Assembly: GCF_025457605.1 (NCBI RefSeq)
Contig: NZ_JAMZFY010000002.1
Span: 1 to 64,000, forward strand
DNA length: 64,000 nucleotides
Reading direction: 5' to 3'
Source: Haloarcula laminariae
Lineage (GTDB): Archaea; Halobacteriota; Halobacteria; Halobacteriales; Haloarculaceae
Shown here: positions 2,159-24,425 of the stretch, in pieces
How positions within the stretch are numbered: the first letter of the stretch is position 1
Layout: every line of letters begins with the position of its first letter
Notes under the pieces: model-generated
The model's database searches: none
Told to the model about the DNA's origin: nothing
What the model saw: the letters and a program-made list of their open reading frames with translations, nothing else
Translations under genes and position numbers: made by a program

Positions 2159-2356
2159 ATGGTGCGAAAGAAGAAGCTCAGCCCGAGTGGCGCCAAAGAT
2201 GAGAACGGCGAGTACCACAACGTACATATCAACATCCACGAAGACGAACTCGCCGTCGCCGGCATGGAGATCGGCGACGAGGTGTTCGTTCGGGTTCGTG
2301 ATAACAAGATCATTATTCAAAAGGCCGACCCCGAAGAGGTCGAACACGATTTCTGA
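2159..2356 (+). CDS. Small AbrB/SpoVT-like domain protein
   Basis: This 65-residue protein has a basic start (VRKKKLSP). It continues into a swapped-hairpin-like pattern, with IHEDELAVAGMEIGDEVFVRVRDNKIIIQKA resembling the AbrB/MazE beta-strand order (strand, 'GxxvGDeV' turn, strand, 'i.I.'). Such proteins are DNA-binding regulators or antitoxin-like, but no toxin gene is adjacent. It is 51 bp upstream of pyrD on the same strand and could be co-transcribed with it. The function is inferred from fold similarity only. Confidence 0.65.
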   Translation: MVRKKKLSPSGAKDENGEYHNVHINIHEDELAVAGMEIGDEVFVRVRDNKIIIQKADPEEVEHDF

Positions 2357-2369
2357 CGTGCCGTCGCCA

Positions 2370-2391
2370 ACCCCCGGCAATCGTCGGGGGT
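2370..2391 (+). other. Hairpin between the AbrB-like gene and pyrD
   Basis: A perfect 7-bp stem (ACCCCCG / CGGGGGT) with an 8-nt loop sits in the 51-bp spacer. No T-run follows, so it is not an obvious terminator. It might attenuate or stabilise the transcript. Confidence 0.35.
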
Positions 2392-2407
2392 CGGTTCGAA
2401 CGCCCCA

Positions 2408-3460
2408 ATGAGACTCTACGACATCGCCAAACCGGTTCTGTTCTCGCTCCCGGCCGAAACGGCACACGGTGCCGTTCACAGCCTATTGAAGACAGCACAG
2501 GGCACCCCGATAGCGACTGCGATGGCCCGGCGCTACACCGTCGGCGACGACCGGCTCGCCGTCTCCGCGTTCGGCCGGGAGTTCGACAATCCCGTCGGCG
2601 TCGCCGCGGGCTTCGACAAGAACGCGACGATACCGAACGCCCTGGCGTCGATGGGCTTTGGCTTCGCCGAGGTCGGCGGCGTCACGGCCGAGCCACAGGC
2701 CGGCAACGCCCGCCCGCGGATGTTCCGTCTGCGAGAGGACGGCGGCCTCATCAACCGCATGGGGCTGAACAACGAGGGCGCGGCGACCGTCGGTGAACGG
2801 CTGGCGGCGACCGATGCCCCGTTCCCGCTGGGGGTCAACATCGCCAAGAGCGAACACGTCGGTACCGACGCGGCGCCGGCGGACTACCGGGAGACGTACG
2901 AACGGGTCGCCGAGGGCGGCGACTTCTTCGTCGTCAACGTCTCCTGTCCCAACTCACAGGGGTTCGAGGAGCTCCAGAACCGGGCGGCGATGACGGCCAT
3001 CTTCGAGGAGCTTCAGGACGCGGGCGCCAGCCCCCTCCTCGTGAAGCTCTCGCCGGACCTCCCCGACCCCGCGGTCGAGGACACGCTGGAGCTGGTGACC
3101 GAACTCGACCTCGACGGCGTCGTCGCCACAAACACGACGACCGAACGCCCCGAAGGGCTGCGCTCGCCCAACGCGAGCGAGACGGGCGGGCTCTCGGGCG
3201 CGCCGATCGAAGACAGAGCGACGCGAATGGTCCGCTTCGTCGCCGAGCGCGTCGACGTGCCCGTCGTCGGCGTCGGCGGGGTCGCCTCGGCCGAGGGCGC
3301 CTACCGGAAAATCCGCGCTGGCGCGTCGCTCGTCCAGCTCTACACCGGGCTGGTCTACGAGGGGCCGTCGCTGGCCCGCGATATCAACGAGGGGCTGGTG
3401 GACTTGCTGGACCGGGACGGCTTCGACAGCGTCGAAGACGCCGTCGGTGCGGACCTCTAG
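2408..3460 (+). CDS. pyrD: Dihydroorotate dehydrogenase (class 2, quinone-linked type)
   Basis: This 350-residue flavoenzyme oxidises dihydroorotate to orotate in pyrimidine synthesis, passing electrons to membrane quinone. Class 2 features are an N-terminal extension (residues 1-40) for membrane contact, the GFDKNATIPNALASMGFGF and NRMGLNNEG blocks, and the C-terminal FMN phosphate site (VPVVGVGGVASAEGAYRKI, then GASLVQLYTG). The catalytic-base segment reads VNVSCPNSQG. The residue at position 180 is Cys, where bacterial class 2 enzymes have Ser and class 1 enzymes have Cys. The stop codon overlaps the convergent downstream gene by 4 bp (CTAG). Confidence 0.95.
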   Translation: MRLYDIAKPVLFSLPAETAHGAVHSLLKTAQGTPIATAMARRYTVGDDRLAVSAFGREFDNPVGVAAGFDKNATIPNALASMGFGFAEVGGVTAEPQAGNARPRMFRLREDGGLINRMGLNNEGAATVGERLAATDAPFPLGVNIAKSEHVGTDAAPADYRETYERVAEGGDFFVVNVSCPNSQGFEELQNRAAMTAIFEELQDAGASPLLVKLSPDLPDPAVEDTLELVTELDLDGVVATNTTTERPEGLRSPNASETGGLSGAPIEDRATRMVRFVAERVDVPVVGVGGVASAEGAYRKIRAGASLVQLYTGLVYEGPSLARDINEGLVDLLDRDGFDSVEDAVGADL

Positions 3461-3669
3461 CGACACTCCGCTATCGGAATCGCGGCCTGGATGTCGGCCG
3501 ACAGCCACGCCGTCCGGCTGTCGCCCGTACCCGGCACGATGGTGAGCACCGAGGGCGCGTCGGGGTCGTCGACGACCCAGTCGAGGGCGAACCACGGATA
3601 GGTCTCACAGGCCGGGTTGCCGTAGCGGTCCGGGTCGCCGCAGTCGGAGTGTCGCTCGGAGGCAGTCAT
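3457..3669 (-). CDS. Small haloarchaeal hypothetical protein (DUF7511-like)
   Basis: This 70-residue protein starts MTASERHSDC and ends AWLSADIQAAIPIAECR. The middle (WFALDWVVDDPDAPSVLTIV) looks like a compact beta-rich domain without a membrane segment. I believe it belongs to a short haloarchaeal family of unknown function (DUF7511), though the name is from memory. The ATG at 3669 was chosen over an upstream in-frame start because the upstream part is not protein-like. It is convergent with pyrD and shares the palindromic CTAG that encodes both stop codons. Confidence 0.7.
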   Translation of the reverse strand: MTASERHSDCGDPDRYGNPACETYPWFALDWVVDDPDAPSVLTIVPGTGDSRTAWLSADIQAAIPIAECR

Positions 3670-20644: not shown

Positions 20645-20699
20645 CCGTCACAGCGGGCGAACCCAACGGCTTTTGCGGGCACAGTCCAACGCTGGGGTA

Positions 20700-21605
20700 A
20701 TGAGTCGCGCGCGCAAGCCCGACTGGCTCAAGACCCGACCGCCGTCGGGCGAGCGGTTCAGCGACATCAAGCAGTCGCTCCGCGAACGCGACCTCCACAC
20801 GGTCTGTGAGGAGGCCAACTGCCCGAACCTGGGCGAGTGCTGGTCGGGAGCCGCGGGCGACGGGGACGCGGCCGACGGCGGCCCGGGGACGGCGACGTTC
20901 ATGTTGCTTGGCGACCGCTGCTCGCGGGGGTGTAACTTCTGTGATGTCGAGACCGGCGGGATGGAGCCGCCGGACCCGGACGAGCCCACACAGGTCGCCG
21001 ACGCCGTCGCCGACATCGGCCTGGACTACGTCGTCCTCACGTCGGTCGACCGCGACGACCTCCCCGACCAGGGGGCGGGCCACTTCGCCGAGACCATCCG
21101 GGAGATAAAACGGCGTGACCCGTCGGTTCTCGTCGAGTGTCTCATCCCGGATTTCCGTGGCGAACCCGACCTCGTGCGAGAGATAATCAACGCCGGCCCG
21201 GACGTGCTGGCCCACAACATCGAGACCGTCGACCGGCTCCAGTGGCCGGTGCGTGACCGCCGGGCGGGCTACGAGCAGTCGCTGTCGGTGCTGCGACAGG
21301 CGAGCCGCGAGAGCGACGTCTTCACCAAGACCAGTCTGATGTTGGGCGTCGGCGAGTACGCCCACGAGGTGTACCAGACCCTCTCCGACCTGCGCCAGGT
21401 CGGGACCGACATCGTCACCTTCGGCCAGTATCTCCAGCCCTCCCGCTCCCATCTGGAAGTCGCGGAGTACGTCCACCCCGACGTCTTCGACACCTGGCAA
21501 CGCGTCGCAGAGGACGAGTTCGACTTCCGCTACTGTGCCTCGGGCCCGATGGTCCGGTCGTCGTACCGGGCCGGCGAGCTGTTCGTGGAGAGCGAGCTCG
21601 CGTAG
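20700..21605 (+). CDS. lipA: Lipoyl synthase
   Basis: This 301-residue radical SAM enzyme inserts two sulfurs into octanoyl groups to make lipoyl cofactor. The auxiliary cluster motif is CEEANCPNLGEC and the SAM cluster motif is CSRGCNFC (CxxxCxxC). The C-terminal part ends FDFRYCASGPMVRSSYRAGE, with the conserved RSSY motif that ligates the auxiliary cluster. The downstream gene carries a lipoyl domain, so a lipoyl substrate is encoded next door. The ATG at 20700 begins the conserved KPDWLKTRPPSG. Confidence 0.96.
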   Translation: MSRARKPDWLKTRPPSGERFSDIKQSLRERDLHTVCEEANCPNLGECWSGAAGDGDAADGGPGTATFMLLGDRCSRGCNFCDVETGGMEPPDPDEPTQVADAVADIGLDYVVLTSVDRDDLPDQGAGHFAETIREIKRRDPSVLVECLIPDFRGEPDLVREIINAGPDVLAHNIETVDRLQWPVRDRRAGYEQSLSVLRQASRESDVFTKTSLMLGVGEYAHEVYQTLSDLRQVGTDIVTFGQYLQPSRSHLEVAEYVHPDVFDTWQRVAEDEFDFRYCASGPMVRSSYRAGELFVESELA

Positions 21606-21705
21606 CGAGCCCGGAGCGGACGGCGACCGCGAGGGCGTCCCGCGGGCTGGTACCCGAGACCGCCCGCATCAAAGACGGTATCACCGGGGCCGTCGATTTC
21701 TAGGC

Positions 21706-23394
21706 ATGTTCGAGTTCGAGTTGCCCGACCTCGGCGATGGGGTCGCCGAGGGAGAGGTGCTGTCCTGGCACGTCGCGGTCGGCGACAGCGTCGAGGAGGA
21801 CCAGGTGCTCGCGGACGTCGAGACCGACAAGGCCGTCGTCGACGTGTCCGCGCCGGTCGGCGGCGTCGTTCGGGAGCGCCACGCCGACGTGGGCGAGGTC
21901 GTCGCCACCGGCCAGCTGCTGGTCACCATCGATGACGAAGCCAGCGGGGACGCACCCGACAGCGAGCCGGCGGCCGAGAGCGGTAGTTCGCCCGCCACCG
22001 ACCGCGTCTTCGCCCCGCCGAGCGTCCGCCGGCTCGCCCGCGAGACGGGCGTCGACATCACCGCCGTCGAAGGGTCGGGACCGAGCGGTCGCATCACTGA
22101 GGCCGACGTGGCGGCGGCCGCCGACGACGGCCCCACAGCGGAGAGCGACGACGAGGACGACAGCGGGCCGACCTCTGTGGTCTCGAAAGTGAGTGACGAC
22201 GAGGACGACAGCGGCCCGACCTCCGTGGTCTCGAAAGTTGACGACGACGAGGAGGACAGTAGCCCGACCGCTGTAATCTCGAAGGTGAGCGACGACGAGG
22301 ACGACACCACTACCGTCGTCGTCGACACTCGGGACGACGCCGACGAGCCGGCGGTCAAGTCCGCCGTCAGGCGGGTGTCCCCCGAGCCGATGGCCGAACG
22401 GCGGGACCACACGCTGGCGACGCCGACCACCCGTCGGCTCGCCCGCGAGCTGGGCGTCGACATCGACGCGGTGCCGACCGACGAGACGCGCGACGGCGAG
22501 CCCTACGTCGACGCCGCGGCGGTTCGGGCCGTGGCGGAGGGGCGAAACGCCCCGGCGGCGAGCGGCGCCGAGTCGGGTTCGGGCGAGGAAGCCGCGGGCG
22601 AGGGGCTCGAAATCGCGGACGGTGACGTACGTGAGGTCGCCGAGCGGGTGGTCTCGGCGCTGCGGGAGACGGCCGACGACATCGGGACGCCCGTCGAGGT
22701 GAGCGACGGGGACCGGCGGGATCCCTACCGCGGAGCCCGCCGGACCGCCGGCGAGCGGATGGCCCGCTCCCGGCGCGAGGTCCCCCACGCGACCCACCAC
22801 GACAAGGTCGCCGTCCCCGGACTGGTCGAGGCCCGCGAGCGGCTCCAGCCGCTGGCCGAGAAACGGGGCGTCGACCTCACCAGTACGCCGCTCGTGCTGA
22901 AATGCGTCGCCGCCGCGCTGGACGACCACCCGGTTCTCGCGACGCAGCTGGACGCCGAGCGCGGGGAGATAGTCTACCGGAGCGACCGCGATATCGGCGT
23001 GGCGACGGCGACCGACGACGGGCTCGTCGTCCCCGTCGTCGAGGACGTCGACGCGAAGGGGCTGCTGGAACTGGCCGACGAGGTGAGCGGCCTCGCCGAG
23101 CGGGCCCGCGACATCGACAGCCAGGCGACGCGGGGCGGCGTCTTCACCGTGCGGAACTTCGGCGCCATCGGCGGGGAGTACGTCGACCCCGTCATCAACG
23201 TCCCCGAGACGGCGATTCTGGGCGTGGGGGCGCTGACGGAGCGACCGATTGCCGAGGACGGGACCGTGGCGGCAAAGCCGACGCTGACGCTGTCGCTCGC
23301 CGTCGACAGCCGGGTCGTCACCGGCACCGACGCGGCCCAGTTCGTCGACACGCTGAAGTCGTACCTGGCGGACCCGACGCGGCTACTGGCGTAG
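21706..23394 (+). CDS. E2-type dihydrolipoamide acyltransferase with degenerate catalytic motif
   Basis: This 562-residue E2-like protein has an N-terminal lipoyl domain (VETDKAVVDVSAP, Lys lipoylation site), a subunit-binding domain (about 103-140, PSVRRLARETGV), and an acidic linker with four near repeats (DDEDDSGPTSVVSKV, about 148-208). A second subunit-binding-like segment follows (about 239-275), and then the acyltransferase fold from about 342. In the fold FTVRNFGAIGGEYVDPVIN is intact. The motif that should read DHRVVDG reads DSRVVTG (residues 534-540), so the catalytic His and Asp are Ser and Thr. No E1 or E3 gene is adjacent. It may be an inactive scaffold or lipoyl carrier. It lies 100 bp after lipA. 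Confidence 0.85.
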   Translation: MFEFELPDLGDGVAEGEVLSWHVAVGDSVEEDQVLADVETDKAVVDVSAPVGGVVRERHADVGEVVATGQLLVTIDDEASGDAPDSEPAAESGSSPATDRVFAPPSVRRLARETGVDITAVEGSGPSGRITEADVAAAADDGPTAESDDEDDSGPTSVVSKVSDDEDDSGPTSVVSKVDDDEEDSSPTAVISKVSDDEDDTTTVVVDTRDDADEPAVKSAVRRVSPEPMAERRDHTLATPTTRRLARELGVDIDAVPTDETRDGEPYVDAAAVRAVAEGRNAPAASGAESGSGEEAAGEGLEIADGDVREVAERVVSALRETADDIGTPVEVSDGDRRDPYRGARRTAGERMARSRREVPHATHHDKVAVPGLVEARERLQPLAEKRGVDLTSTPLVLKCVAAALDDHPVLATQLDAERGEIVYRSDRDIGVATATDDGLVVPVVEDVDAKGLLELADEVSGLAERARDIDSQATRGGVFTVRNFGAIGGEYVDPVINVPETAILGVGALTERPIAEDGTVAAKPTLTLSLAVDSRVVTGTDAAQFVDTLKSYLADPTRLLA

Positions 23395-23447: not shown

Positions 23448-24425
23448 ATGAGTGAGGCCGACGCCGAGTCGCGGGCGGGACGGGAGGAAGTGTGGATAGA
23501 GAAGTACCGCCCACAGTCCCTCGCCGACGTGCAGGGTCACGAGGACATCGTCGGGCGCCTGCAGAGCTACGTCGACCGCAACGACCTGAGCCACTTCCTG
23601 TTCAGCGGGCCGGCGGGGACGGGAAAGACCACCTGCGCCGCGGCCATCGCCCGCGAGCTGTACGGCGAGGACTGGCGCGACAACTTCCTGGAGCTGAACG
23701 CCTCAGACGAGCGGGGTATCGACGTGGTCCGGGACCGCATCAAGAACTTCGCCCGGACGAGCTTCGGCGGCCACGAGTACCGCATCATCTTCCTCGACGA
23801 GGCCGACGCCCTCACGAGCGACGCCCAGTCGGCGCTGCGCCGGACGATGGAGCAGTTCTCGAACAACGTCCGGTTCATCCTCTCGTGTAACTACTCCAGT
23901 CAGATTATCGACCCCATCCAGTCGCGGTGTTCGGTCTTTCGCTTCTCGCCGCTGAGCGACGAGGCGGTCGAGGCGGAGATACGCCACATCGCGAGCGAGG
24001 AGGACATCGAGCTGACCGACGACGGGCTGGACGCGCTGGTGTACGCCGCCGGGGGCGACATGCGCAAGGCGATCAACGGGCTGCAGGCGGCCTCGGTCAG
24101 CGGCGACGTGGTCGACGAGGCGGCGGTGTACGCCATCACCTCGACCGCGCGACCCGAGGAGATACACGGGATGGTCCAGTCGGCGCTGGACGGGGACTTC
24201 ACGGCGGCGCGGGCGACGCTGGACCGGCTGTTGACCGAGGAGGGTATCGCCGGCGGCGACATCATCGACCAGCTCCACCGCTCCATCTGGGAGTTCGAAG
24301 TCGAGGACCGGGCGGCGGTCCGCATCCTCGAACGGGTGGGCGAAACCGACTATCGAATCACGCAGGGCGCAAACGAGCGCGTGCAGCTGGAAGCGATGCT
24401 GGCCTCGCTGGCCAACCCCGAGTAG
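23448..24425 (+). CDS. rfcS: Replication factor C small subunit
   Basis: This 325-residue AAA+ clamp-loader subunit loads PCNA at primer ends. Motifs in order are the RFC-specific [13 protein letters not shown], Walker [14 protein letters not shown], Walker B FLDEADAL, sensor 1 FILSCNY and the SRC motif [10 protein letters not shown]. The C-terminal helical collar domain is complete. It starts 53 bp after the E2-like gene. Haloarchaea usually have other small-subunit paralogues; none is seen here. Confidence 0.97.

Follow-up and report, generated by a model that had tools for sequence, protein, structure and literature searches.

The best described comparators for the protein analysed here are the dihydrolipoamide acyltransferases (E2) of E. 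coli and a non-catalytic E2 homologue of eukaryotes. In E. coli E2p, the reactive sulphur is surrounded by Ser551, His603 and Asp607 (PMC8421416), and in E. coli E2o the single replacement of the active-site His, Asp or Thr by alanine leaves 2.1%, 9.5% and 45% of complex activity, respectively, with combined loss estimated by multiplying the single-residue effects (PMC5986005). The E2o histidine mutants can nevertheless be partly active, with H375W retaining 59% and H375G about 13% of complex activity (PMC5986005). Eukaryotic pyruvate dehydrogenase complexes also contain E3BP (protein X), a non-catalytic E2-like protein with lipoyl and E3-binding domains (PMC9681731), which works in complex with an active E2 and E1. 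Haloarchaea oxidise pyruvate and 2-oxoglutarate with ferredoxin-linked enzymes, and for most of the lipoyl-dependent complexes no substrate is known (PMC8305020).

Here, we analysed a 64,000-nt stretch of Haloarcula laminariae (GCF_025457605.1, contig NZ_JAMZFY010000002.1, positions 1-64,000 of the forward strand; hereafter the window), a haloarchaeon whose genus also includes Haloarcula rara, Haloarcula pellucida, and relatives. The window encodes an E2 that occupies the orthologous position of the lipA-linked 2-oxoacid dehydrogenase E2 of Haloarcula and its relatives and shares their domain order (lipoyl, E3-binding, acidic linker, second partial E3-binding, and catalytic). It differs from them in three respects: E1alpha and E1beta are missing from the window, the active-site His, Asp, and Thr are replaced, and the substitution rate is raised. 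Taken together, these observations indicate that the window E2 is probably an orphan of an E1 deletion, inactive and losing constraint. The features of the locus are as follows, all on the forward strand.

20673-21605, forward: lipA, lipoyl synthase, 310 aa, intact (NCBIfam TIGR00510, 369.8 bits against a cut-off of 310.25)
21606-21652, forward: spacer, the left edge of the deletion, where E1alpha and E1beta codons 1-311 are missing
21653-21703, forward: deletion scar, the last 16 codons of E1beta, PETARIKDGITGAVDF, and its stop codon (nucleotide alignment)
21706-23394, forward: orphan E2, a dihydrolipoamide acyltransferase homologue of 562 aa with its catalytic residues lost (Pfam/NCBIfam, PDB relatives, alignment, rate tests)
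21712-21930, forward: lipoyl domain, aa 3-75, with the lipoyl Lys42 retained (Biotin_lipoyl, PF00364)
22006-22110, forward: first peripheral subunit (E3)-binding domain, aa 101-135 (PF02817, 60.2 bits)
22146-22306, forward: three acidic linker repeats at 48-nt spacing (direct repeats; similar ones in relatives, such as L014)
22414-22476, forward: second E3-binding domain, partial (PF02817, 27 bits)
22711-23391, forward: E2 catalytic (CAT-like) domain, aa 336-561 (2-oxoacid_dh, PF00198, 224.5 bits)
23152-23154, forward: Thr483 replaced by Arg (CGG), a third active-site residue, opposite the catalytic His (Thr invariant in 32 orthologues)
23305-23325, forward: DSRVVTG in place of DHRV(I/V)DG, residues 534-540 (translation and orthologue alignment)

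Each of the tandem linker repeats codes for an acidic unit with an S(V/I)(V/I)SKV-like motif at its end, and relatives carry similar repeats between both E3-binding domains. A promoter scan with a bacterial consensus gave no match, which says nothing here as the host is an archaeon.

The comparison of gene order points to the event that separated E2 from its partners. Relatives have the order lipA, E1alpha, E1beta, and E2, followed in the nearest relatives by rfcS, whereas in the window E2 begins 100 bp after lipA with neither E1 gene in between. The tail of E1beta remains before E2 (21653-21703), so a deletion has removed all of E1alpha together with about 95% of E1beta. The nucleotide alignment to Haloarcula rara (L014) begins exactly at 21653 and continues into E2, and the tail, which is present in syntenic relatives, keeps their position and register relative to the E2 start. 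The spacer to its left (21606-21652) gave no convincing alignment to relatives, which carry E1alpha and E1beta at that place. The preceding LipA is 84-91% identical to LipA of genus members, with a normal branch dN/dS, and the idea that the deletion had cut lipA was rejected, since its short C-terminus (FVESELA) is like that of LipA in G021 and G025. A preliminary description of this DNA had remarked that E2 has no E1 or E3 beside it, which is borne out, and that it follows lipA, which is true and yet not telling because the adjacency derives from the ancestral gene order.

The active-site replacements were examined against two sets of sequences. All 32 aligned orthologues, 28 of which belong to the same genus, carry DHRV(I/V)DG, and in the wider family a further 26 of 26 readable E2s have DHR followed by VI, VV, II, or TI and then DG. 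A single genome shows the altered motif. The change of His535 to Ser (CAC to AGC) and that of Asp539 to Thr (GAC to ACC) each take two base changes, and DSRVVTG is therefore neither alignment noise nor a sequencing slip. PDHX likewise has Ser where E2 has His. The third position, Thr483, matches Ser551 of E. coli E2p and Thr323 of E2o by its spacing from the catalytic His, which at 52 residues equals that between Ser551 and His603 in E2p (PMC8421416). The two residues flanking the lost His, D534 and R536, are both retained.

These results bear on several statements of the preliminary description. Its reading of DSRVVTG in place of DHRVVDG holds in the translation and against the intact motif of the orthologues, although its start had been set one codon early, at Val533. 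It had further reported both catalytic positions as altered, which is correct for His535 and Asp539 and is now extended by Thr483. Its assertion that the motif carries the His of all active E2s is too strong, since replacement of this residue by Trp or Gly is partly tolerated in E. coli E2o. Judging from the E. coli E2o mutants and the E. coli E2p structures, the window E2 has almost certainly lost acyl transfer to CoA, and automatic annotation, which is likely to call it an acetyltransferase, would almost certainly be wrong. By descent, the protein is a member of the E2 family. It retains in sequence a lipoyl domain with its lysine (Lys42, within TDKA), a peripheral subunit-binding domain, and a CAT-like domain, and two features of an active E2 are missing: the catalytic His and Asp of DHRxxDG with an opposing Ser/Thr (here Ser535, Thr539, and Arg483) and a cognate E1 in the genome.

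Loss of constraint was evident well beyond these three residues. The window E2 deviates at 14 of the 164 columns invariant in the 32 orthologues, against 0-2 deviations in 14 relatives, each tested by leave-out. The changed columns fall in the catalytic domain (10 of 94) and the lipoyl domain (4 of 39), and none of the 30 invariant columns of the two E3-binding domains together is affected (0 of 15 in the first). Similarly, the folded domains contain 36 lineage-specific replacements in the window E2 versus 2-7 in five relatives, and a separate count for the lipoyl domain gives 12 versus 0-2 in relatives. The preliminary description had called the surrounding fold and the lipoyl lysine intact; Lys42 is indeed retained, and the lipoyl domain, with its changed invariants, cannot be called intact. 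At the level of identity, the window E2 is 73-76% identical to its best full-length relatives, and in a second comparison it shares 75-78% with relatives that share 81-86% among themselves, while the values for LipA, AlaS, and RfcS are normal.

This pattern was also seen with branch codon models written for this analysis, which are simple models on a small tree of six taxa and then of seven taxa with two topologies. Whole-gene omega was 0.19 on the window E2 branch versus 0.08 elsewhere (p = 1.7e-4), and catalytic-domain omega was 0.20 versus 0.054-0.057 (p = 1.7e-4, six taxa), a rise that was the same on seven taxa under both topologies and persisted when the motif was left out (p ~0.001). 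The neighbours behaved normally, with no omega rise on the window branch for LipA, RfcS, or AlaS on six taxa, nor for AlaS and RfcS on seven. By simple arithmetic, an increase from 0.055 to 0.20 is what would result if about 15% of the branch were free of constraint. The lipoyl-domain omega gave p = 0.02 on the six-taxon tree and was not significant on seven taxa, for which reason the count of changed invariant residues was used for this domain instead.

A search of the whole window genome, which is 99.5% complete, found no E1_dh (PF00676) or Transketolase_C (PF02780) domain, while both control searches were positive in Haloferax volcanii and E1_dh was matched in 28 of 32 genus members. The window E2 is the single real PF00198 protein of the genome. 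A candidate second E2 on contig 1 (weak PF00198, 25.5 bits) was rejected as spurious, as it lies inside the reading frame of a UPF1/DNA2-like helicase. The genome does encode an intact gcvT-gcvH-gcvP1-gcvP2 cluster (L087), two LplA/LipB-type (lipoate ligase-type) proteins, and a dihydrolipoamide dehydrogenase (L086, 6028-7440, reverse strand; G000:C2, ~390 kb) that lies far from E2. In many other genus members, a dihydrolipoamide dehydrogenase gene sits closely behind E2. From the gene content, the simplest view is that lipA, the ligases, and E3 work for the glycine cleavage protein GcvH. Because this cluster gives lipoyl synthesis a client, the retention of lipA needs no assembly-factor role of E2.

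A sequence of events consistent with these findings would start from an ancestor with the haloarchaeal operon lipA-E1alpha-E1beta-E2, the genes of a 2-oxoacid dehydrogenase complex. As the scar shows, a deletion then took E1alpha and all of E1beta except its last 16 codons and brought lipA against E2. With no E1 to load acyl groups on the lipoyl arm, E2 would have been left without a reaction to catalyse, and the relaxation of selection on it would have led to the raised nonsynonymous rate and to the many changes at invariant positions, with His535, Asp539, and Thr483 around the reactive sulphur among the residues lost. That the frame is still open may reflect the high GC content of the gene and a loss that was probably recent relative to the branch. 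Under this account, the motif would be altered because the partner E1 was lost, so that an apparent oddity of the active site would be explained by an event that is itself readable from the DNA, and the locus would represent a natural example of a multienzyme complex being dismantled.

The preliminary description had suggested instead that the protein may have changed its role, to lipoyl carrier, scaffold, or assembly factor, and had named an intact motif in relatives at this locus as the observation that would count against it. The relatives do carry the intact motif there, together with an intact E1alpha/E1beta pair, and the E1 deletion scar and a lineage-wide loss of constraint that includes the lipoyl domain likewise speak against the proposal. 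A broader version would hold that a pseudoenzyme has been retained as a lipoyl carrier, as an E3 scaffold acting through the E3-binding domains, or as a source or store of lipoyl groups for GcvH, with the fold and Lys42 under selection and the active site free to change. We consider this unlikely, though it is the most serious competitor and draws on several observations. Lys42 and both E3-binding domains are retained, lipoylation genes and an E3 exist in the genome, and inactive, E3-binding E2 homologues are known in eukaryotes (E3BP; PMC9681731). The 562-aa frame has no stop and no frameshift, and branch omega is below 1 (p ~1e-9, whole gene), a value averaged over a branch that spans the deletion and so mixes its earlier and later parts. 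The changes at invariant columns are also denser near the DHR motif (4 of 10 in residues 530-542 versus 6 of 84 elsewhere; Fisher p = 0.010, for a region picked after the fact), and at 5 of the 14 changed invariant positions the replacement takes two base changes, a pattern not expected of uniform drift.

Against such a role, the part that a carrier would depend on, the lipoyl domain, is one of the most altered in the protein, the trait is absent from all relatives, and the rate excess of the catalytic domain extends beyond the active site. The open frame was rejected as proof of function, since only 0.46% of random mutations in this GC-rich gene create a stop, and the chance of the frame staying open after ~80 neutral substitutions is 69% (counting stops only, with frameshifts left out). 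It is weak evidence both for this reason and because the branch includes the time before the deletion. The positive evidence for a residual pseudoenzyme role amounts to little more than the open frame, the branch dN/dS below 1, and the clustering of changes near the active site. For the same reasons of open frame and omega below 1, we do not file the window E2 as a finished pseudogene, although a branch average may hide a neutral last part. Overall, the locus looks like the ordinary decay of a partnerless gene rather than a new kind of lipoyl protein.

A more specific variant, in which the protein stands alone and serves glycine cleavage as a lipoyl carrier or E3 scaffold, making it an archaeal counterpart of E3BP born of complex loss, appears doubtful. 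Human PDHX is among the PDB sequence matches of the window E2 (6h60), the E2-like fold with its catalytic residues lost is recognisable in the sequence, and E3 binding is predicted from the presence of the E3-binding domain. In contrast to E3BP, which has an active E2 and E1 as partners, the window E2 resides in a genome with no other E2 and no E1, and because an active partner complex is missing, it is not an E3BP. Far less plausible is an E2 that still works, though less well, and receives acyl groups from an E1 that is unlinked or unrecognised or from some other donor. The tolerance of E. coli E2o for some His replacements (H375W, H375G; PMC5986005) and the retained D534 and R536 are compatible with it, but the genome contains neither an E1alpha nor a Transketolase_C domain, and His, Asp, and Thr, each of which matters on its own in the E2o alanine mutants, are all replaced. 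An assembly or sequencing artefact, whether E1 genes collapsed or dropped in assembly or a chimeric junction, is highly improbable even in a draft of 9 contigs, as the junction lies inside a 1.1-Mb contig with the E1beta tail in correct register with E2, and the lost-constraint signature of E2 is independent and could not be produced by collapse.

A partial parallel to the decaying orphan is provided by Haloarcula sp. LUM.49 (G028; L084/L085), a metagenome-assembled genome that is 71% complete. Its orphan E2 resembles that of the window in that E1beta is cut, no E1 match was found in the 71%-complete assembly, and invariant positions show excess changes (8 of 94 in the catalytic domain). It differs in keeping the last 94 aa of E1beta, behind a transporter cluster as the upstream neighbour, in having an intact DHRVLDG, and in showing no significant rise of omega on its branch. 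As the breakpoints differ, the two E1 losses are separate or nested events, between which the tree does not decide.

In a wider survey of 146 genomes of the family, eight genomes at least 90% complete had no E1, and a full E2 was present only in the window genome; one other of these eight gave a weak stand-alone domain match. Two complete genomes of the genus (G006 and G014) are without E1, full E2, GcvH, LipA, and LplA/LipB, and seem to have dropped the entire lipoyl cofactor system. Since E1-less genomes are mostly without a full E2, the loss of these complexes appears to be tolerated and usually complete, which makes an orphan E2 caught midway rare in a family where E1 and E2 are otherwise lost together. 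The locus in this way supports the dispensability of these complexes in haloarchaea, where oxidation is ferredoxin-linked (PMC8305020).

Two further observations were made among the relatives. Stand-alone E2-type catalytic-domain proteins that lack a lipoyl domain and carry DHD(I/V)VDG (Asp for the motif Arg) are encoded at L127 (G014:C2:122500-128500, ~2340-3135, forward strand) and L128 (G021:C2:301500-307500, ~2719-3500, reverse strand), with similar weak matches in G012, G017, and G020; G014 has such a domain despite being without E1, LipA, GcvH, and lipoate ligase. The rfcS gene of several relatives carries an insertion of ~1.3-3.5 kb near codon 120-123 that is intein-like by position (L003, 8256-11633; L066, 10482-11785; L005, 9912-11215; L085, 1832-5283), and the window rfcS (23448-24425) is uninterrupted.
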